From positions 1 to 64,000 of the forward strand of contig LNDN01000003.1 in assembly GCA_001464065.1 (NCBI GenBank): a stretch of DNA of 64,000 nt, written 5' to 3'. The position numbers and the translations under genes were made by a program. This document shows, in pieces, positions 39,080-49,119 of this stretch. This DNA comes from Acidobacteria bacterium Ga0077522. GTDB lineage: Bacteria > Acidobacteriota > Vicinamibacteria > Vicinamibacterales > Vicinamibacteraceae. The first letter of the stretch is position 1; each line of letters begins with the position of its first letter. The notes beneath the pieces were generated by a model, which ran no database searches, was not told the DNA's origin, and worked only from the letters and a program-made list of their open reading frames with translations.

Positions 39080-40873
39080 CTACCGCCGTCTCGGAATCGC
39101 GTAGCGCTCGTCGTCGACGCCGAACACGTGCAGCATGCCGGACTCGGTGCCGACGTACACCTGCCCGAGGCCACTCCACAGACTGCCCGTCGACGCGCGG
39201 CCGGTCATCGTCGGACCGCTCGACCACAACCGCGTGCCGGTGGTGCCGTCGTAGGCGTGCAGCGTGGCGCCGGTGGCGGCCGCGCCGGCTCTGGCGGGTG
39301 CACCGGTGCCAAGCGCGAAGACCACGCCATTGACGATGAGGGGCGTGGCGGGAGCGGTGAGCGCGCCGGAGGTCCACACGGGGTCGAGCGCGAGCGTCCC
39401 GGACGTCTCGCGCACGGCGAGCGCGACGACACCGCCGCGCGCCGCGAGACCGTTCGTGCGCGGCACCGCCGTGGCCAGCGGCCCGCTCACGGGCACGAGG
39501 ATCTGCGTGGTCGCCTCCTGCTGCCAGAGGGCGATGGCGTCGCGGGTCACCGACGCGCCCCTGCCGGCAAGAGGGACCGAGGTCGCCAGCGCCGTGGCGT
39601 GGTCGGCGCCGCCGAGAGACGCGGCATCGAGCAGCACCACGCGGCCGTCCTTCGTGGCCGCAGCAACGATCTCGCGGTCACCCTGGCGGAAGACCGAGGG
39701 GCCGGTGGCGAAGTCGGCGTCGGGCCGCGTGAACCAGTCCGTCACGGCCAGGGTCTTCGGGTCGAGGGCCACGATGGCGTTGGCCTTGCCATCGCCGGTG
39801 ACGGTGCCCGCACCCACGGCGACGAGCAGCCTGCCGTGCGAGGTGACGGCGACCGGACCGGCCACGGGACCGCCGTTGGTCGGCCAGGACACGACCGGCT
39901 TGGCGTCGCTGTCGAGATCGATCGCCCAGACTGCGTCAGGCGTGCCGCCACAGGCGCCGGTGGTGGCGGCGTACAGGGTGGTGTCCACGGCCACCGGGGC
40001 CGTCCATCGCGCACCGCGCGGCAGGAAGCGCGCCGGGCGCTGCAGATCCTTGCCCGACGTCAGGCCGAGCACGCGCAACCGGCCGTCGCGCGCGATGACG
40101 TAGACGACCCCCGAGGGCCTGGCGAGCGCTCCCGTTGGGGGCGACGCTGGCGGCGGTGCGCCCGGGATGAAGCCCGGCGGGCGAGCGGTGGTGGTCGCCG
40201 TGGTGGTGGCGGCTGCCGACGAGGCTGCTGGAGCGCCTGCGGCTGGAGTGCCCGCTGCTGGCGAGCCCGCAGCGACCGCGCTGCCCGGAGGCGTCGCGGG
40301 CCTCGCGGCGGCCTGCGCCTGGCGGCGTACGACGTCCACCGGGGCCCCCTCACCGGGGCGCCCCAACTGGGTCCGGTAGCCGACGCCTGGAGGACCCGCG
40401 GGCCGCGCCAGCGGGTTGGCCGTTGCCGAGGCGTCGAGTGGCACGATGCGCGTCGCCGCGGCCGTCACCGCCCCCGCGCAGGCCGGCAGGGTCGCGGCCT
40501 CCTCGAGGTCGAGCGCGCGTTCCCACACCACGAAGCCGTTGTCGTTGTCGAGGCCGTAGACGCGGTCGCCCGCGCCGGTGACGACCGACATCGGCACGAA
40601 CAGCGTGACACCGCTCGCCGTCACGCCCTGGCCGAAGCCTCCCGAGACACCCGCGGCGCGTCCGAGCCGGGCGTGCCACTGCTCGGCGAAGCCGGGCCCG
40701 CTCAGTGCTGCGACCGAGATCTTGTCGTCCACGCGCACCCAGGACGTGCGCTGCGCATCGGCCAGCGGGACGAACCATCGCGTGCCGCCGCGCCCGACCT
40801 GGGCGAGGCCGACGCTGCCGGAGACGATGCACGCGAGTGCGAGCAGGGACCATCGATGAGCGCGCATGGTCAT
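39080..40873 (-). CDS. PQQ-binding-like beta-propeller protein, exported
   Basis: Signal peptide; blade motifs (VYGLDNDNGFVVWERAL, LHAYDGTTGTRLWSSGPTM); Ala/Pro/Thr-rich internal linker. Confidence 0.82.
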   Translation of the reverse strand: MTMRAHRWSLLALACIVSGSVGLAQVGRGGTRWFVPLADAQRTSWVRVDDKISVAALSGPGFAEQWHARLGRAAGVSGGFGQGVTASGVTLFVPMSVVTGAGDRVYGLDNDNGFVVWERALDLEEAATLPACAGAVTAAATRIVPLDASATANPLARPAGPPGVGYRTQLGRPGEGAPVDVVRRQAQAAARPATPPGSAVAAGSPAAGTPAAGAPAASSAAATTTATTTARPPGFIPGAPPPASPPTGALARPSGVVYVIARDGRLRVLGLTSGKDLQRPARFLPRGARWTAPVAVDTTLYAATTGACGGTPDAVWAIDLDSDAKPVVSWPTNGGPVAGPVAVTSHGRLLVAVGAGTVTGDGKANAIVALDPKTLAVTDWFTRPDADFATGPSVFRQGDREIVAAATKDGRVVLLDAASLGGADHATALATSVPLAGRGASVTRDAIALWQQEATTQILVPVSGPLATAVPRTNGLAARGGVVALAVRETSGTLALDPVWTSGALTAPATPLIVNGVVFALGTGAPARAGAAATGATLHAYDGTTGTRLWSSGPTMTGRASTGSLWSGLGQVYVGTESGMLHVFGVDDERYAIPRRR

Positions 40874-42453
40874 CAGTCCTGACGAGGAATGCCGAAGCAG
40901 TAGAGGGTGCCGTCGAAGGTGGCGAGGTAGACGCGACCGTTGGCCACGGTGAGCCCGCTGAAGTGATTCCAGGAGGCGATCTGGTCGCCGCTGGACCAGA
41001 GCTCCTTGCCGGTCTTGCCGTCGAGGGCGTAGATCGCCGCGCGTCTCGACCCGGCGATGCGCCGCACCGGACCCGAGCTCAGGCCTCCGCCATAGACGGG
41101 ACCGCCAGGCTCGTCCCAGCCCTTCTCGGGCATCACCTGCGAGGCGTCTTCGCCAGCGGCATACGCGAACACGATGCCGTTGGCGATGACGACTTCCTCG
41201 GCCAGATCCATGTCGCGCGAGAGCCATGCCGGCACCAGTCGCCAGCCCTCGGGGCGCTGACGCACCGTGAAGGCGGCGACGCCGCCGCCGCGGGGACGGG
41301 CGTGTTCGAGCGGCGCCTTGAAGGTGCGGCTCACCGGCCCCCAGAACGGCGCGAGAACCCACTGCGTGCCCGCCCCATCCTTCCAGGCGCCGAGCGCGCC
41401 CCACACACCCTGTCCATCGAACGCGGCCTGATCGTTGCAGATGAGCGGCGTCGTGTGCAGCGTCGTCCGGTGGTCCTCGCCACCCAGGGCATCGCGGTCC
41501 AGCAGCCAGAGGCGGCACTCCTTGCTCGTACCCACGAGGAAGCGACGGCCGCGGTGATCGAAGGCGATCGGCGTGGTGTTGACGTCGAGATCCCGCCGCC
41601 ACAGCCAGTTCGCGTTCGGCGCGCCGAAGAAGTCGGCCAGCTGCAACTGCTTCATCGCATCGAGCCGGACACCGACGATGCCGTTGCCGAGACGACGGGT
41701 GATCGGGTCGAACATCGCATCACCGGTGCCGAGGAACACGCGACCTTCGGCATCGATGGAGGCGCCGCGTCGTCCCCACAATCCGCCACCCGAGGGAATG
41801 AACGCGCTCACCACCTGACTGGCGAGATCGAACGAGTAGAAGGCGTTGGTGAGCCCGCCGCACCCCTGGGCCGTGGCGGTGTAGATCACGCCGTTGTGCA
41901 GGTTCAGCGCGTAGGGCTTGCCGCCCCCCGGAATGAACAGCGCCGGTGGCGCCGTGTCGGTCCCATCGGCGAGATTGAGCTGACGCAGGCGGCCGTCCCA
42001 GGAGACGGCGTAGATCGTGTAGGTGCCCGGCGACGTCTGCGCCATGGTCGGCACCGCCGTCAGGCCGCCAGGGCACAGCGTGTCGTCGGTGCGGCCCTCG
42101 CTCGTGAGCGTGCTGTCGAAGCGGCGGTGCCAGATCTGTCGACCCGTAGCCACGTCGATGCCCCACAGGTCGTCTGACACGCCGGCGACGACCGCGAGCT
42201 CCCGCACACCGGCCGTCGTCTGCACCTTCTCGGCCACCAGCGGCGCGAACAGGTTGTGCATCGCCCGCGGCTTGCTGTCCAGTTTCGTCGTCCAGAGCAG
42301 CGTGGACGCGCCCACGTTGGCTGGCGTGAAGACGCGTTCGTCGCGGACCCAGCCCGTCCGCTGCGTGTCTACGCCTTCGGTCAGGAAGTCGGAGGCCAGC
42401 CCCGTCGCCCCCACCGCCACCAGCCACACCAACGTCAGCTTCGCAGCCTGCAT
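40873..42453 (-). CDS. PQQ-binding-like beta-propeller protein, exported
   Basis: DDLWGIDVATGRQIWHRRFDSTL; AIYALDGKTGKELWSSGDQIASWNHFSGLTVANGRVYLATFDGTLYCFG; overlaps the start of the next gene. Confidence 0.85.
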   Translation of the reverse strand: MQAAKLTLVWLVAVGATGLASDFLTEGVDTQRTGWVRDERVFTPANVGASTLLWTTKLDSKPRAMHNLFAPLVAEKVQTTAGVRELAVVAGVSDDLWGIDVATGRQIWHRRFDSTLTSEGRTDDTLCPGGLTAVPTMAQTSPGTYTIYAVSWDGRLRQLNLADGTDTAPPALFIPGGGKPYALNLHNGVIYTATAQGCGGLTNAFYSFDLASQVVSAFIPSGGGLWGRRGASIDAEGRVFLGTGDAMFDPITRRLGNGIVGVRLDAMKQLQLADFFGAPNANWLWRRDLDVNTTPIAFDHRGRRFLVGTSKECRLWLLDRDALGGEDHRTTLHTTPLICNDQAAFDGQGVWGALGAWKDGAGTQWVLAPFWGPVSRTFKAPLEHARPRGGGVAAFTVRQRPEGWRLVPAWLSRDMDLAEEVVIANGIVFAYAAGEDASQVMPEKGWDEPGGPVYGGGLSSGPVRRIAGSRRAAIYALDGKTGKELWSSGDQIASWNHFSGLTVANGRVYLATFDGTLYCFGIPRQD

Positions 42454-42587
42454 GTGTCCCCGCCTCTCGCTGTCCACGGCCCGGGCATCATAGACGAGAC
42501 GTGGCGATCGCGGGGATGCCGTGGTCGGCTAGAATTCGCCTGTCGCGCAGCAGCCTCGGGGACCAGCGGTCGCGACGGAGGTGTGCA

Positions 42588-43133
42588 ATGGCGGTGCAGT
42601 GGGGAATGACAGGCGCCCTGGTGGCGGTGTGGCTCGCGTCGACCGTGGCAATGTCGGCGCGTCAGGTTCCGGCCTCGGCCCAGCCTCCGGCTCCCGGCGT
42701 GGTGATGCTGGTGCCGTCCGGCGAAGGCCTGCCCGACGGACCGGGCAAGGACGTCACCGTGCGGTCGTGCGGCACCTGCCACGAAGCGCGCCGCGCCGCG
42801 TCGGCGCGCCTGACCCGCGCCGGCTGGGCGGCGGTGATCGACAGCATGATGGGCCGTGGCGCCATCATCGCGCCCGATCAGGTGCCGGTCGTGCTCGACT
42901 ACCTGTCGACGCACTTCCTCGGCGAGGCGGCGCAGCCGCTGAACATCAACACGGCGCCGCAGATCGACTTCGAGTCCGGCGGTGGGCTGTTGCGCCGCGA
43001 GGCGGCGGCCGTGGTGCGCTACCGCGAGAAGTACGGGCGATTCAAGTCGGTGGACGACTTGCGGAAGGTGCCGGGCGTCGACTTCCGCAAGATCGACGCC
43101 CGTCGATCCGCCTTCATCGTCGTTGTCGGGTAG
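42588..43133 (+). CDS. Exported CxxCH (cytochrome c-like) protein with C-terminal ComEA-like helix-hairpin-helix
   Basis: Signal peptide; VRSCGTCHEARR; LNINTAPQIDFESGGGLLRREAAAVVRYREKYGRFKSVDDLRKVPGVD. Confidence 0.78.
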   Translation: MAVQWGMTGALVAVWLASTVAMSARQVPASAQPPAPGVVMLVPSGEGLPDGPGKDVTVRSCGTCHEARRAASARLTRAGWAAVIDSMMGRGAIIAPDQVPVVLDYLSTHFLGEAAQPLNINTAPQIDFESGGGLLRREAAAVVRYREKYGRFKSVDDLRKVPGVDFRKIDARRSAFIVVVG

Positions 43134-43243
43134 GGCCGGCTCCCGGGGTAGGGCTGGCTCTCCGAGCCGGCCGTCACGGCCCGTTCGGAGAACGGGCCCT
43201 ACCCTCACGCTGACGGCCCGTTCGGAGAACGGGCCCTACCCTC
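43128..43243. repeat. Cluster of REP-like hairpins: one partial, one inverted and two direct copies
   Basis: 43146-43175 GGGTAGGGCTGGCTCTCCGAGCCGGCCGTC; exact 31-bp repeat ACGGCCCGTTCGGAGAACGGGCCCTACCCTC at 43176-43206 and 43213-43243. Confidence 0.9.
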
Positions 43244-44771
43244 GACCAATCGTCGCGATCGCGCGATCGGCCGCCAGCACGCCGCGGTACTGTGCCTCCT
43301 CGAACAGCGGCAGGCCGCTGAGATCCGAGTGCGCGTAGAACAGCCGGTCCTGGCCGTCCTGCAGGGCGCGCCAGCCGGGGTTCGACAGGAGCCCGGGCGT
43401 CGGGCGCACCATCGCGTGCCCGAAGCGCATGATGTCCACGCGGGAGACGTGCTCGCGGATGTCCGGGTGGGGGCGGGACAGATCGTCCAGCACGCGGTCG
43501 CGCAGCGTCGCGTAGTCCTGCGCAAGCAGCCAGCGCCGCGCCTCGGCGGCCGGCTGGTGGGCAAGGGCCCAGTAGTAGGTCCACACCGTGCGAGGCACGT
43601 GCCGGCGCAGGTGCTGGTGCGTGGCGACCACGTATCCGAGCGCCGGCGAGTCGAACACCACGTTGTCCCACGCCATCGGGAAGCCCGTCTCGCGCGGCCA
43701 GCCCTCCAGCGTGAGGTTGGCCGTGACCCACGGCGATGACGTCACGCGCACCGGCGGCGCGCCCGCGACGATGCGGGTGGCCACGTGCAGCGGCGCGGCG
43801 ACGATCACCACGTCGGCCGTCCAGGCCGTGGTCGGCGTCAGCACGCGCCACGCCCGGCCTGCGCGCTCCACCCGGTACGTGACCTGTCCGGACTCGACGC
43901 GGGTGCCGAGCCGCTGCAGCAATCGGCGCACGATCCAGCCGTTGCCCTCCGGCCAGGTCAGCGGGCCCGAGTCATCGGCGTCACGCGCCGCGAAGTAGAG
44001 CACGCCGGCCCAGGCCGAGACATCGCGTGCAAGCCCGCCGTAGTCGTCCCGGCAGGCGTAGTCCACCATCCACCGCAACCACGGCGAGTCGAGGCGCTCG
44101 CGATCGAGCCACGCGGCCATCGAGAGCGCGTCCTCGGGCGGCACACCCTGCGGCCCCAGTCCGACCGCCATCGGAATCGTGAAGCGTCCGGTGGCGCGCA
44201 GTTCGGCCATGCGGGCCGTGAAGCGGACGAACTGGTCCCGATCGCGGCGCGTCGGCCCCACGGCCGGCTCGAGGCCCTCCTGCCAGCGCCCGTGCAGGAA
44301 CAGCCGCTCGTCCGGCGCGTGCACGAGGTGCCGCTCGTCCCACGTCTGGCCGTCGTACACGCCGAGGTCGGCGAAGATCTCGCGGACCAGACCCGCGGCC
44401 GCACCCGGGATGGGCACGTAGTGCGCTCCCCACGGGTAAGCCGAGACCTCGTTCTCGCCCCAGCGCGAGTTGCCACCGGCCTCGCGCTCCATCTCGAGGA
44501 TCACGAAGTCGTCGAGGCCCTGCTTGGCGAGACGCCATCCCGCACACAGGCCCGCCATGCCGCCGCCGACGATCACCACCGACGCGCGGCGCTGCTTCGT
44601 CGGTGCGGGCTGTCTGATGCCGTCGCGCAGCTGATGACCGGCGACGTGCGACTCGTTGACGAAGCCCCCGGCGATCGGGCGACCGGCCTTCTGCGTGAGG
44701 CCGACGAGCGCGGCCGACAGGAAGCCGCGGCGCGAGAGAGGGGTTGGGCGGGAACGGCCCGCGTCCGTCAT
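43236..44771 (-). CDS. FAD-dependent oxidoreductase (flavin amine oxidase-like), Tat-type signal
   Basis: SRRGFLSAALVGL; SVVIVGGGMAGLCAGWRLAKQGLDDFVILEMEREAGGNSRWGEN. Confidence 0.87.
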   Translation of the reverse strand: MTDAGRSRPTPLSRRGFLSAALVGLTQKAGRPIAGGFVNESHVAGHQLRDGIRQPAPTKQRRASVVIVGGGMAGLCAGWRLAKQGLDDFVILEMEREAGGNSRWGENEVSAYPWGAHYVPIPGAAAGLVREIFADLGVYDGQTWDERHLVHAPDERLFLHGRWQEGLEPAVGPTRRDRDQFVRFTARMAELRATGRFTIPMAVGLGPQGVPPEDALSMAAWLDRERLDSPWLRWMVDYACRDDYGGLARDVSAWAGVLYFAARDADDSGPLTWPEGNGWIVRRLLQRLGTRVESGQVTYRVERAGRAWRVLTPTTAWTADVVIVAAPLHVATRIVAGAPPVRVTSSPWVTANLTLEGWPRETGFPMAWDNVVFDSPALGYVVATHQHLRRHVPRTVWTYYWALAHQPAAEARRWLLAQDYATLRDRVLDDLSRPHPDIREHVSRVDIMRFGHAMVRPTPGLLSNPGWRALQDGQDRLFYAHSDLSGLPLFEEAQYRGVLAADRAIATIGRG

Positions 44772-46270
44772 CGATTCAACGCGCTCCACTCGCGCTCGTA
44801 GTAGCGCACCAGCTGCTGGGTGTGCAGGCGGTTGGGCTCCACCGGGACGCGGGCCATGTCGAGGGGGAACTCGAACAAATCACCCAGGGCGTCCGTGGTC
44901 AGGAAGCGCAGTCCCGACGGCAATGTCGTCGGTGTTGCCGGCGGTGTGCGCCCGGCAAGCACGAAGCCCCATTCACCGAACGACGGCACATAGACGTGAT
45001 ACGGCGCCGTGGCGAATCCGGCCTGCTCGATGGTGGCGACGATGCACCAGTAGGACTGGCGGGCGAACAGCGGCGACGTCGACTGCACCACGAAGGTCGC
45101 GCCTGGCGTCAGCCGCGCCATCAGCATCCGATAGAACGTCGTCGTGTAGAGCTTGCCGAGCGAGAAGTTCGACGGGTCGGGAAAGTCGACGACCGCGAAG
45201 TCGAAGGTCTCGCGGGTCTCGTCGATCCACGTGAACGCGTCGGCGTTGACCACCTGCACCCGCGGATCGCTCAGCGCATTGCCGTTGAGGCGGCGCAGTT
45301 CGCTGTGGGTGGAGAACAGTCGGGTCATCTCCGGGTCGAGATCGACCAGCGTGACCGCGCGCACGCCCGGGTAGCGCAGCACCTCGCGCAGCGCGAGCCC
45401 GTCTCCGCCGCCGAGGATCAGCACGCGCGCGGCCTCGGGCAGCGCCGCCAGGCCTGGATGGACCAGCGCCTCGTGATACCGGTACTCGTCACGCGAGCTG
45501 AACTGGAGGTTGGCGTTCAGGAACAGCCGGAGGTCGTCCTTCCACGCCGTCATCACGATGCGCTGGTACGGCGTCGTCCGCGACAGCACGACATCGTCTG
45601 CGTAGAGGTTGGCTTCGGCGAGGTCCAGCAGGGCGTTGGCCTTCCACAGGCCGACTCCGAGCAGGGCGAGCGTCACCACACACATCGCCTGCAGGGATCG
45701 CCGAACCACCGGCGCCAGCGACTCGCGCAGCAGGAACGTGGTCCACAGCGCCACGAGGATGTTGATGGCGCCGAAGAGCATGGGCGCCCGGACGAGGCCG
45801 AGCTTCGGCACCAGCACGATCGGGAACAGCAGCGAGGCGCCAAGGGCGCCGAGGTAGTCGAACGTCAGGACGTTGGCGACCACGTCCTTGAACTGGAAGC
45901 GGTCGCGCAGCAGCCGCATCAGCAGCGGGATCTCGAGGCCCACCAGCACGCCCACCACGAGCACGAGGCCGTAGAGCAGGAGCCGGAAGGCGCTGGTGTA
46001 CGCAAAGGCCAGGAACAGCAGCGCCGACGAGAAGCCGCCGACGACGCCGACCATGATCTCGATGAGGATGAAGCGGGCGACCAGGCCGCGCCCGATGAAG
46101 CGGGAGAGCCACGACCCGATGCCCATGGCAAACAGGTACGTGCCGATGACGGTGGAGAACTGCGTGACGCTGTCGCCGAGCAGATAGCTCGCGAGCGCGC
46201 CGGCGACGAGCTCGTAGATGAGCCCGCACGCGGCGATCAGCAGGACGGAGACGAGCAGGGCGGCTGTCAT
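44768..46270 (-). CDS. Membrane-fused spermidine synthase (polyamine aminopropyltransferase)
   Basis: Several N-terminal TM helices; VLILGGGDGLALREVLRYPGVRAVTLVDLDPEM; DAFTWIDETRETFDFAVVDFPDP. Confidence 0.92.
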   Translation of the reverse strand: MTAALLVSVLLIAACGLIYELVAGALASYLLGDSVTQFSTVIGTYLFAMGIGSWLSRFIGRGLVARFILIEIMVGVVGGFSSALLFLAFAYTSAFRLLLYGLVLVVGVLVGLEIPLLMRLLRDRFQFKDVVANVLTFDYLGALGASLLFPIVLVPKLGLVRAPMLFGAINILVALWTTFLLRESLAPVVRRSLQAMCVVTLALLGVGLWKANALLDLAEANLYADDVVLSRTTPYQRIVMTAWKDDLRLFLNANLQFSSRDEYRYHEALVHPGLAALPEAARVLILGGGDGLALREVLRYPGVRAVTLVDLDPEMTRLFSTHSELRRLNGNALSDPRVQVVNADAFTWIDETRETFDFAVVDFPDPSNFSLGKLYTTTFYRMLMARLTPGATFVVQSTSPLFARQSYWCIVATIEQAGFATAPYHVYVPSFGEWGFVLAGRTPPATPTTLPSGLRFLTTDALGDLFEFPLDMARVPVEPNRLHTQQLVRYYEREWSALNR

Positions 46271-46304
46271 GGAGGCAACGCGGGCAGGCGCCCCTGCGCC
46301 AGGT

Positions 46305-46517
46305 CTAGTGGATGGCGGCGGCGATGATCAGCGACATGCCGAGCGCCACCGCGCCGATGAGTACGGCCAGTGCGGTGTTGTGCTCGTCGATGATCTCGCG
46401 CCACAGCGTGTAGGGCGTCAGCCGATCGATGATGAGGAACGTCAGCAGGAACACGCTGATGCCGAGCCCCGCGAACACCAGCGCGGAGATGAGATTGCTG
46501 AGCAGCGTTGCTTCCAT
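46305..46517 (-). CDS. DUF350 membrane protein
   Basis: MEATLLSNLISALVFAGLGISVFLLTFLIIDRLTPYTLWREIIDEHNTALAVLIGAVALGMSLIIAAAIH. Confidence 0.85.
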   Translation of the reverse strand: MEATLLSNLISALVFAGLGISVFLLTFLIIDRLTPYTLWREIIDEHNTALAVLIGAVALGMSLIIAAAIH

Positions 46518-46520
46518 CGG

Positions 46521-46706
46521 TCACTTCCCTCCGAAGAAACGAGGCGCGCCGTTGTACAGCGACCGGTACGCCCCGGGGTTGTCGCGAATCGAGCGCGGGA
46601 CGTTGCGGACGACGGCCGGCTTCGTGGCCAGCCAGCCACGCATGTCGGCCATCGCCGAACTGCCCACCACCAGCGCGCCGAACGCGAGAAACAACAGGGA
46701 TCTCAT
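46521..46706 (-). CDS. Small exported protein in polyamine/DUF350 operon
   Basis: MRSLLFLAFGALVVGSSAMADMRGWLATKPAVVRNVPRSIRDNPGAYRSLYNGAPRFFGGK; short gaps to both neighbours on the same strand. Confidence 0.65.
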   Translation of the reverse strand: MRSLLFLAFGALVVGSSAMADMRGWLATKPAVVRNVPRSIRDNPGAYRSLYNGAPRFFGGK

Positions 46707-46720
46707 TGCGGTCTCACTCT

Positions 46721-48649
46721 CTACTCGTCCTCGTCGTCGTCACCCGACGATGCCGAGCCGTAGTCGCTCTCCTGCATCCGCGTGCCTTCGAAGGCGGCGT
46801 ACCGGATGCCCGTGTACAGCGGCGGGATGGCCAGCAGCACGAGCCCCAGCAGATAGGGCAGCAGACTCGGCACGTCGCGGCGCACGCGCAGCGAGTACGA
46901 GACCACGGGACCGTTGACGGGGCCCTCGGGCTCGACCCGCAGGTAGTACTGACCGGCCGGCACGGAGCGCAGCAGCGTGGACGCGCCGGAGGACCCTTCG
47001 GTCCACGATTCGCCGCCGTCGACGCCCTTGTAGAAGCTGACCTCGCGGTCGACGTTGAAGGCGTCGCCCGACTCGAGGTTGATCAGCGCGAGATCGAAGC
47101 CGAGCCACGAGTTGGACAGGTTCGTGTTGGTGGTGAGCTCCACCGTGCCCGAGTCGCGCAGCGTGAACGGCTCGGTGACGAAGGCGGACTCGGCCGTGCC
47201 CGGCTGGAACGTGTACTGCTGCAGGAACACCTGCTCGCGGTCGGCCGTGATCTGGCGCCCGATGCCGAACAGCAACAGCAGCGCCGCCAGCAGCGCGAAC
47301 GCCCCGACCATCGGCCAGACGCGGCCGGCGCGCGGATTGGGCTGGTTGGCGAACACGCCGACGGGCGAGGGCGGGGCACCGGGCAACTGGAACGCCTGCC
47401 AGACGACGTCGGGTGCCGTGTAGCGGCCGAGCGACCAGGTGCGCTCGGCATCCGTGCCTTCGCTCGACAGCATCAGCGGCGGGTCGATGAAGTCGTCGGT
47501 CTGCACCGTCTCGCCGACACGCACCCGCCACGGGAACTCGCCGAGCACGAAGTCGGTGCGGGCCTCGGCGTGCTGGAAGGCCTTGAACACCGTCGAGCCG
47601 TGCCGCCAGTTCGGGCGGTGGGCCCCGGCATGCAGCAGCCTCGGGCGCTCGCGCACCACCGTGACGTCGTTCCAGTGGCCGTTGTACGTCGTCAGGTAGC
47701 GGAAGCCGTGGTACGGGTTGAAGAGGACGTACTCGTCCCACGCGTAGCGCACGTCCTCGACCGAGATCGAGCGCTGCTGGAACCCGATGGCGTCGTAGGG
47801 CTGCCCGTGCCAGGTGCCGCGCGTGCCCAGCGGGATCACCGGCGTGATGGACTGCCTGGCGGCCGCGGCCTGCAGGATCGTGACGTTGCGGTCGCGCGCG
47901 TCGATGACCGCACCGCAGCTGGTGCAGGCCACGGCGCGTGTGTGCGCCAGGGCGCGCAGTTCGACGGCCGCGCCGCAGTTGGCGCAGTTGAAGCCCCGCA
48001 TGCCCGCCGACCGGTCGACGGCGTCGAAGGTCCGGACGTTGCCGAGGCCGAGTTCGTCGAACGAGACGAAGCGCCCGAGGAAGAGCATCGGCGCGCCGTC
48101 GCTGTAGTCGATGGTGCCGAAGGTCGCGTCGTGGCCGCGGAGGTCGGCAAACAGCACGTCCTCCTTGCCCCAGAACTCGAACGGCAACTCGCCTTCCACG
48201 CCCTTGTAGCGGGCGGTGGTCAGCGTGGTCACCTGGAGTTCGCGCTGATCCCAGGTGTAGTCCATGCCGAGGCGGACGGCGTCCGCTGCCGGCAGCGGAC
48301 GGGTCGGCTGCACGAGACTCGAGACGGCGAACTCGAGCTGCGCATCGGAGAGCCAGCCGCTCGTGCCATCCGCGTACACGAGGTGCCACTCGTTCCACCC
48401 ACCATCGTCGTACTCGTAGACGATGCGGCCGATCACGGTGAAGCTGCGGCCGTCGACGGCACCCGTGGTGCCGATCTGGATGGGCGAGGCGTCGGGTGGC
48501 AGGTCGGCGACTTCGCCAATCGTCTCGAGGTCGACGTCGTGGCGGACGATGACCGATCGACAGGCGTCGCACGTGGTCTGGATGGCGCTGGACCAGCGGA
48601 AGCGCACGGGGGCGCTGCAGTTCGGGCAACGCCCGGCCGGACCCCTCAT
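46721..48649 (-). CDS. DUF4178-type zinc-ribbon membrane protein
   Basis: CPNCSAPVRFRWSSAIQTTCDAC and CANCGAAVELRALAHTRAVACTSC; two TM segments; start overlaps speD stop (ATGA). Confidence 0.85.
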   Translation of the reverse strand: MRGPAGRCPNCSAPVRFRWSSAIQTTCDACRSVIVRHDVDLETIGEVADLPPDASPIQIGTTGAVDGRSFTVIGRIVYEYDDGGWNEWHLVYADGTSGWLSDAQLEFAVSSLVQPTRPLPAADAVRLGMDYTWDQRELQVTTLTTARYKGVEGELPFEFWGKEDVLFADLRGHDATFGTIDYSDGAPMLFLGRFVSFDELGLGNVRTFDAVDRSAGMRGFNCANCGAAVELRALAHTRAVACTSCGAVIDARDRNVTILQAAAARQSITPVIPLGTRGTWHGQPYDAIGFQQRSISVEDVRYAWDEYVLFNPYHGFRYLTTYNGHWNDVTVVRERPRLLHAGAHRPNWRHGSTVFKAFQHAEARTDFVLGEFPWRVRVGETVQTDDFIDPPLMLSSEGTDAERTWSLGRYTAPDVVWQAFQLPGAPPSPVGVFANQPNPRAGRVWPMVGAFALLAALLLLFGIGRQITADREQVFLQQYTFQPGTAESAFVTEPFTLRDSGTVELTTNTNLSNSWLGFDLALINLESGDAFNVDREVSFYKGVDGGESWTEGSSGASTLLRSVPAGQYYLRVEPEGPVNGPVVSYSLRVRRDVPSLLPYLLGLVLLAIPPLYTGIRYAAFEGTRMQESDYGSASSGDDDEDE

Positions 48650-49119
48650 CGCTCGGTGTCCCTCGACTCCCGACTCCCGACTCCCGACTCCCGTTCGTTG
48701 CCGTACCGGCGCTCGATGCGGCGGACGAGGGTCTCGGTGGCGCCGAGCATCTCGGCCATCAGGCCGGCGGCATCGAAGTCGTCGCGCGCCTTGCAGCAGA
48801 AGACGTTGACGCAGATCGAGCCGTATTCCGGGAACGTGTGGCAGGCCAGGTGCGACTCGGCCAGGATGACGAAGCCGGTGAGTCCACCCGGCGCCGGGAA
48901 CGTGTGCCAGGCGGCCGGCGCCACCGGCGTGAGGCGCAGGTCGGCGATGAGCCGGGCAAACAGCGCGCGCAGGCGGCCGGCATCGCGCAGCACGTCGGCG
49001 TCGCAGCCGCGGGCGTCGATCACCCACTCGGCGCCACGCATCGCCGCATCGGCGCTCGGAGCGGGCGGGGTCGCCATTCGGGGCTGGGTGACGTCGCGTT
49101 CCGGGGGAGACACGGCCAT
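48646..49119 (-). CDS. speD: S-adenosylmethionine decarboxylase proenzyme
   Basis: GFVILAESHLACHTFPEYGSICVNVFCC matches the AdoMetDC ESHxxxHTxPE site. Confidence 0.9.
   Translation of the reverse strand: MAVSPPERDVTQPRMATPPAPSADAAMRGAEWVIDARGCDADVLRDAGRLRALFARLIADLRLTPVAPAAWHTFPAPGGLTGFVILAESHLACHTFPEYGSICVNVFCCKARDDFDAAGLMAEMLGATETLVRRIERRYGNERESGVGSRESRDTER
48665..48692. repeat. GACTCCC heptamer x4 inside the speD 3' end
   Basis: Four exact 7-bp units; encode the ESGVGSRESR tail on the minus strand. Confidence 0.92.

Follow-up and report, generated by a model that had tools for sequence, protein, structure and literature searches.

An envelope tail protein with an invariant C-terminal lysine as candidate acceptor in SpeD/SpdF/DUF350 operons

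Gene organization of the operon

The 64,000-nucleotide window analyzed here (the whole stretch, positions 1 to 64,000 of contig LNDN01000003.1 from Acidobacteria bacterium Ga0077522, class Vicinamibacteria) contains a six-gene operon on the minus strand at 43236-49119. The operon encodes an S-adenosylmethionine (AdoMet) decarboxylase (SpeD), a DUF4178 protein, a small protein with an unusual C-terminus that we call the tail protein, a DUF350 protein, a spermidine synthase (SpdSyn) domain fused to seven transmembrane (TM) segments (SpdF), and an FAD enzyme (Table 1). All six open reading frames (ORFs) were found in the order and on the strand given by the initial annotation, and the ATGA overlaps (48646-48649 and 44768-44771) and short gaps that it listed are present, the remaining gaps being 14, 3 and 34 bp. 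In the DUF4178 protein, which has two zinc-ribbon-like CxxC pairs next to its two DUF4178 domains, two TM segments (read by eye) flank a predicted extracytoplasmic β-rich domain.

Table 1. Features of the operon, with positions in the window.
Feature	Position	Strand	Evidence
SpeD, AdoMet decarboxylase class 1b	48646-49119	minus	Pfam AdoMet_dc, 85.5 bits
DUF4178 protein, 642 aa	46721-48649	minus	116 bits, two DUF4178 copies
Envelope tail protein, 61 aa	46521-46706	minus	ORF, alignment, purifying selection
End of tail gene, GGA GGG AAG TGA	46521-46532	minus	Read from sequence
DUF350 small membrane protein, 70 aa	46305-46517	minus	49.8 bits, about half of model
SpdF, 7-TM domain and spermidine-synthase domain	44768-46270	minus	NCBIfam PRK03612, 687 bits (cut-off 472)
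FAD enzyme, 511 aa, monoamine oxidase (MAO)/polyamine-oxidase fold	43236-44771	minus	Weak Amino_oxidase/NAD_binding_8 matches

Conservation of the gene cluster

The gene order is the same or nearly so in 10 other loci of the same class (L034 and L039 being one locus). Scanning GTDB genomes with a SpdF alignment returned at least 590 relatives, and the best 80 loci were examined. These best 80 come from Acidobacteriota, Gemmatimonadota, Pseudomonadota, Verrucomicrobiota, Elusimicrobiota, Myxococcota, Oligoflexia and Nitrospinota records, and profile annotation of their ORFs gave a recurring core of DUF4178 - (small gene) - DUF350 - SpdF - FAD. The position of SpeD in this set is more variable: it comes first in Acidobacteriota and Gemmatimonadota, and after the FAD gene or elsewhere in the other groups. 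The initial annotation had named a lack of conserved linkage as an observation that would speak against its reading; the order is conserved within the class and, with SpeD relocated or missing, across phyla, so that the linkage is strongly confirmed.

Several variants of this layout were observed. In more distant families of the class an extra gene lies between SpdF and the FAD gene (L028, L031 and L033); in L031 and L033 its product is WD40-repeat-like, and in L028 it is another protein. In the operons of Novosphingobium and Ralstonia, DUF4178 has as its neighbor an SPFH (band-7) protein with a SHOCT-like C-terminal end (L121:2583-3578 and L122:4232-5281), which the window operon does not have. 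A plasmid of Alteromonas mediterranea carries a divergent operon (L125:8988-13569) in which SpdF is 34% identical and no FAD gene occurs in the cluster. Besides SpdF and SpeD, it encodes a coiled-coil membrane protein, a TelA-type toxic-anion resistance protein, a single DUF4178, a full-length DUF350 and a 510-aa lipoprotein ending in SSGK.

The tail protein and its C-terminal lysine

The initial annotation recorded a small exported protein of 61 residues. It is indeed a conserved envelope tail, but its importance was passed over. The protein has an N-terminal signal/TM segment, the motif VPRSIRDNPGAYRS and the C-terminus FFGGK-COOH, and in a class-wide alignment the signal/TM segment is likewise followed by VPxSIRDNPGAYRS and then by a C-terminal ...GGK. 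The ratio of nonsynonymous to synonymous differences (pN/pS) was 0.30-0.82 in 15 pairs, indicating purifying selection and thus a real gene. Searches of Pfam, NCBIfam and PADLOC gave no match to a known family, and the tail gene was found in every locus with DUF4178 and readable downstream sequence.

Across phyla the segment between the TM segment and the C-terminus is unalignable (e.g., MFKSYVAAGIFALSLFSYAQYHGWSVWSVSESKPQPGVARSAYHK in L084), and the last residue is always lysine. All 96 tail entries, representing 95 distinct loci (one was counted twice) from at least seven phyla, end in this residue: 52 in GK, 43 in HK and 1 in VK. By comparison, these loci contain 1,809 ORFs of 250 aa or more, of which 71 (3.9%) end in lysine and 18 (1.0%) in [GH]K, an ending found in none of 91 SpdF, 56 SpeD and 64 DUF350 proteins. 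As a held-out set we used 17 genomes in which DUF4178 does not adjoin SpdF. DUF4178 was present elsewhere in all 17. Its downstream sequence was readable in 15 loci, where the adjoining tail ended in HK (12) or GGK (3), so the expectation held in every one of them.

The lysine is reached on four scaffolds. Most loci have a TM microprotein. Burkholderia cenocepacia has a microlipoprotein with an LFSC lipobox that ends in YGSHK, and the lipoprotein of the divergent Alteromonas operon ends in GPSSGK. All five Comamonadaceae-type loci (L099, L105, L109, L114 and L118) are without a microprotein, and the tail is fused to DUF4178, which carries an added C-terminal TM segment and a Ser/Gly tail ending in GGSHK or GGGHK (e.g., ...GGYTSGGSHK). 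That different scaffolds reach the same last residue is the strongest evidence from these sequences for a functional C-terminal lysine.

It could be argued that overlap with the Shine-Dalgarno sequence of the next gene (GGAGG.AAG.TGA) produces the GGK ending as an artefact, as 33 of the 52 GK tails, the window tail among them, have a Shine-Dalgarno-like 5-mer in their last 15 nt. The GGAGG at the end of the tail gene is likely the Shine-Dalgarno sequence of DUF350 and may help to fix the glycine codons, which makes it a caveat for the glycines and not for the lysine. For the lysine, the artefact is largely refuted and extremely improbable: none of the 43 HK tails has such an overlap, AAA and AAG codons are used equally (47 and 49), and the terminal lysine is shared by the fused and lipoprotein tails. 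C-termini commonly serve as recognition degrons or ligands, and the penultimate residue is also limited to G or H, which would fit a [GH]K signal for assembly, proteolysis or localization that is never chemically modified. Such a signal would leave unexplained both the company that the tail keeps with an amine-transfer enzyme and the matching Gly-Gly tails that accompany an acid-amine ligase in E. coli (see below), and we regard it as quite improbable.

Probable aminopropyl transfer by SpeD and SpdF

SpeD keeps the AESHLACHTFPE processing/active-site motif and matches the ESH...HT[FWY]P pattern of AdoMet decarboxylases. It is encoded in single copy in the genome and has no export signal. SpdF consists of a 7-TM domain (residues 1-212) and a spermidine-synthase domain (residues 226-500) in which the motifs GGGDG, YHE and DFPDP are kept, including the Asp pair of the putrescine site. 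The catalytic GGGDG, D362/D365 and Y265-H266-E267 are invariant or nearly so across relatives, and both fold and profile comparisons showed that the domain folds like the Thermus aminopropyltransferase. With TIGR00417, the equivalog model for soluble SpeE, SpdF scored 117.6 bits as a protein and 119 in the genome search, and did not reach the cut-off of 249.55. Among 22 genomes with SpdF that were tested, SpeD was present in all 22 and a bona fide SpeE above the cut-off in only 1. The active-site motifs, the fold and the co-occurrence with SpeD make it very likely that SpdF and SpeD carry out an aminopropyl transfer, so that the acceptor is what is in question.

The identity of the acceptor bears on a conventional explanation, i.e., that SpdF is a membrane-anchored enzyme of ordinary free-polyamine synthesis that aminopropylates putrescine or agmatine, with the tail as a subunit of structural or regulatory function. 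The genome encodes no complete aminopropyl pair besides SpdF and SpeD, the putrescine-site Asp pair and YHE are kept, and the NCBIfam name for SpdF is polyamine aminopropyltransferase. The initial annotation noted that no putrescine-producing decarboxylase lies beside the operon, which is true locally, but the arginine decarboxylase SpeA (901 bits) is encoded elsewhere in the genome; putrescine or agmatine could therefore exist as substrates for such a synthesis. On the other hand, bacteria with this type of cluster reportedly contain a functional AdoMet decarboxylase and no spermidine, and their SpdSyn fusions are said to be unable to complement a SpdSyn mutant. Free-polyamine synthesis would also leave the invariant C-terminal lysine on several envelope-tail scaffolds unexplained, and does not agree with the predicted extracytoplasmic location of the catalytic domain. 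We consider it rather unlikely.

Apart from SpdF, no SpeE-like enzyme of this genome has a full active site. The other SpdSyn-like genes, three long membrane proteins and one 263-aa ORF, all lack the YHE/DxxDP set and were ruled out as true SpeE. For two of the three long proteins (L035 and L036; the three, with L037, lie on contigs C7, C276 and C176), inspection by eye suggested an extra TM segment after the MFS-like part, which would place the SpdSyn-like domain outside as well. A PADLOC match of SpdF to mad2 (63.5 bits, residues 274-424) reflects the shared SpdSyn fold only, and PADLOC found no further component of a complete MADS anti-phage system among the six operon products.

Membrane topology

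To derive the orientation of SpdF, Lys and Arg frequencies per loop were obtained from 88 sequences and summed by hand. The loops 57-66, 119-130 and 181-194 are rich in these residues (summed frequencies about 2.7, 3.6 and 2.7), whereas the loops 30-36, 91-97, 153-162 and 208-225 are poor (about 0, 0.9, 1.4 and 0.7). The AlphaFold2 (AF2) model (pLDDT 91) has helices at 2-31, 34-58, 63-91, 95-122, 127-180 (read as two) and 187-209. The charge bias and the seven TM segments point to an N-in orientation with the catalytic domain outside, and our confidence in this extracytoplasmic location is moderate. The tails are N-in/C-out by charge in 81 of 88 cases, with a mean N-flank of +1.2 versus a C-flank of -0.3, and the lipoprotein scaffolds and the Cys pairs in the Comamonad tails agree with an external C-terminus. 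When the Tat (twin-arginine) and lipobox signals of the FAD enzymes are added, the SpdF catalytic domain, the tail and the FAD enzyme are predicted to face the same extracytoplasmic side.

The FAD enzyme

The FAD gene had been described as encoding a Tat-signal, amine-oxidase-like protein, and this description is borne out. Translation from the ATG at 44771 gives a protein with the twin-arginine motif SRRGFLS; a Tat motif was present in 38 of 44 FAD enzymes and a lipobox in 13 of 44. The enzyme has a MAO-type two-domain FAD fold (matches to 8p84 and 2yg7, with about 14-19% identity) and belongs to its own conserved family; amine oxidation is the predicted activity. Because the Alteromonas operon lacks the FAD gene, the enzyme is not essential to the system.

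An exported enzyme of this fold raises another explanation for the lysine. SpdF may aminopropylate a membrane lipid or a small envelope amine, with the lysine tail acting as a cationic anchor or as the partner of an aldehyde that the FAD enzyme generates (Schiff base or cross-link). The 7-TM fusion sets the active site at the bilayer, an enzyme with an amine-oxidase fold is exported to the same side, and lysine is a classic partner of the aldehydes that amine oxidases produce. However, Alteromonas retains SpdF and a GK-ended lipoprotein without a FAD gene in the cluster, and cross-linking needs no C-terminal position, yet the lysine must be C-terminal. This makes a lipid or small-amine acceptor unlikely.

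Neighboring genes and repeats

Downstream of the operon, two PQQ-binding-like β-propeller genes lie within 39080-42477 and a divergent cytochrome-like/HHH protein gene at 42501-43133. In L025 the operon is likewise flanked by the HHH gene and by the propeller gene of 40873-42477, neither of which was seen in the other loci; they were therefore placed outside the operon. The 3' end of speD contains a tandem heptamer, GGGAGTC, in about four copies (48664-48692), which encodes the C-terminal codons of SpeD (ESGVGSRES). The genome contains 106 occurrences of the 21-mer formed by three repeats, against 0 for the reversed control, which identifies it as a dispersed heptanucleotide repeat.

Proposed mechanism

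The reading that we consider best, with a probability of roughly 45%, is aminopropylation of the tail's C-terminal lysine at the envelope. SpeD would produce decarboxylated AdoMet (dcAdoMet) in the cytosol, and the spermidine-synthase domain of SpdF would move the aminopropyl group onto the C-terminal lysine of the tail instead of onto putrescine. A single transfer or several in succession would lengthen the tail with positively charged amine groups on the outer side of the inner membrane, and the Tat-exported FAD enzyme might oxidize or trim the added amine. DUF350 and/or the 7-TM domain may bring donor or tail to the enzyme, and DUF4178 may organize or sense from the cytosolic side. Our confidence is moderate for the tail lysine as the acceptor and weak for the roles of the FAD enzyme, DUF350 and DUF4178. 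A bolder and more doubtful version places the aminopropyltransferase outside the cytoplasm, where it would use exported dcAdoMet to extend the C-terminal lysine of a tethered tail by an aminopropyl or oligo-aminopropyl chain, a new post-translational modification paralleling the ATP-grasp Gly-Gly systems discussed below; the two would then belong to one general class of DUF350-linked systems that add amines to the C-termini of envelope proteins.

Several points weigh against lysine aminopropylation. The active site of SpdF resembles the one in ordinary spermidine/thermospermine synthases, and the active-site comparison revealed no SpdF-specific change in the acceptor pocket; K373 in the acceptor loop was considered as an SpdF-specific carboxylate binder, but this was abandoned since the residue also occurs in the aligned plant thermospermine synthase. 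If the predicted topology is right, dcAdoMet is needed at the outer face, and we know of no such exporter; if the catalytic domain is inside, the tail would have to be modified before export. The Alteromonas cluster does without the FAD enzyme. Furthermore, the 96 tails are not independent events, since the loci are related by descent, and some of them were collected by requiring a [GH]K end (the Tritonibacter VK tail was found only once K alone was allowed); the independent evidence lies in the several scaffolds and the unalignable tails.

The existence of bacteria with SpeD and a membrane-fused spermidine synthase that are reportedly free of spermidine raised the question of what the substrate of aminopropylation is. 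The tail, with its invariant C-terminal lysine, offers the first concrete candidate for the modification target of the cluster. If the proposal is true, it would add a new protein modification and possibly an extracytoplasmic use of dcAdoMet, and would reveal a logic common to DUF350-linked systems in bacteria as far apart as Acidobacteriota and E. coli. Many annotations as 'polyamine aminopropyltransferase' would then misname genes as free-polyamine enzymes.

Comparison with known systems

The abstract of Li 2019, the study on spermidine-free bacteria, is not known to mention a tail protein, a C-terminal lysine or an extracytoplasmic catalytic domain, and our searches of the literature turned up neither a C-terminal lysine tail nor an aminopropylated protein. 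The operon type itself is not new, as it was described by Ravi 2024 (PMC11237479) and reportedly by Li 2019, which Ravi 2024 cites; the tail with its invariant C-terminal lysine appears to be unreported. In Ravi 2024, an operon group of a 7TM-SpdSyn fusion, DUF350, DUF4178 and a 'novel lipoprotein' is described, and 'aminopropylation of other substrates' with an effect on membranes is proposed, a wording in keeping with the lack of spermidine and of complementation that Li 2019 is reported to have found. For the same two reasons, of the initial proposal that a polyamine is either made and turned over or attached to an envelope target, the first half is less favored, and the attachment half fares better in view of the lysine tail.

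The window operon contains the components of the Li 2019 cluster type (AdoMet decarboxylase, MFS/7TM-SpdSyn fusion and DUF350) as SpeD, the membrane-fused SpdSyn (PRK03612) and DUF350, and, in keeping with both descriptions, has a SpdSyn domain fused to an N-terminal multi-TM region with DUF350 and DUF4178 in the operon. The PspA-CesT/Tir group of Ravi 2024 shares the SpdSyn fusion, DUF350 and DUF4178. Unlike that group, the window operon has SpeD and the FAD amine-oxidase-fold enzyme, and the microprotein replaces the lipoprotein. The SSGK lipoprotein of Alteromonas may correspond to the Ctha_1186-type lipoprotein mentioned there. A PspA link was rejected for the window operon, as the 100%-complete genome gave no PF04012 match.

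The catalytic fold and motifs of SpdF are like those of soluble SpeE (Thermus PAPT 1uir and Medicago TSPS 6bq2; E 3e-17 for fold and 1e-46 for profile). In contrast to soluble SpeE, SpdF has an N-terminal 7-TM domain, stays below the TIGR00417 cut-off and occurs where SpeE is mostly missing. The FAD enzyme has the MAO fold in common with SpdH and with monoamine and putrescine oxidases, and the Tat signal in common with SpdH; it differs by its low identity in the fold matches and forms a conserved family of its own.

A parallel is found in E. coli with yjfIJKLMC, which encodes the PspA protein YjfJ, the DUF350 protein YjfL, the lipoprotein YjfM and the ligase YjfC, and with ygiBC. YgiC and YjfC are peptide-spermidine ligases according to their RefSeq product name and to Pederick 2023 as cited in PMC12568646. 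The flexible Ser/Gly/Arg tails of the envelope lipoproteins end in GHWGG (YjfM) and SRSMGG (YgiB), and homologues beside related ligases end in SFGG, SMGG, SSGG, WGS, SGS or CCG. Like the window operon, the YjfC/YgiC systems combine a DUF350 partner (YjfL in yjf), an envelope tail with a constrained C-terminus and an amine-adding enzyme. They differ in having an ATP-grasp acid-amine ligase, of which Pfam and NCBIfam profile searches found none among the six operon products, a Gly-Gly end and no SpeD, whereas the window operon has an aminopropyltransferase and a Lys end. By this analogy, the window operon is a system that would work like the YjfC/YgiC systems and is not a member of them. An acid-amine ligase paired with a Gly/Ser end and an aminopropyltransferase paired with a Lys end is the pattern to be expected if the tails are the substrates.

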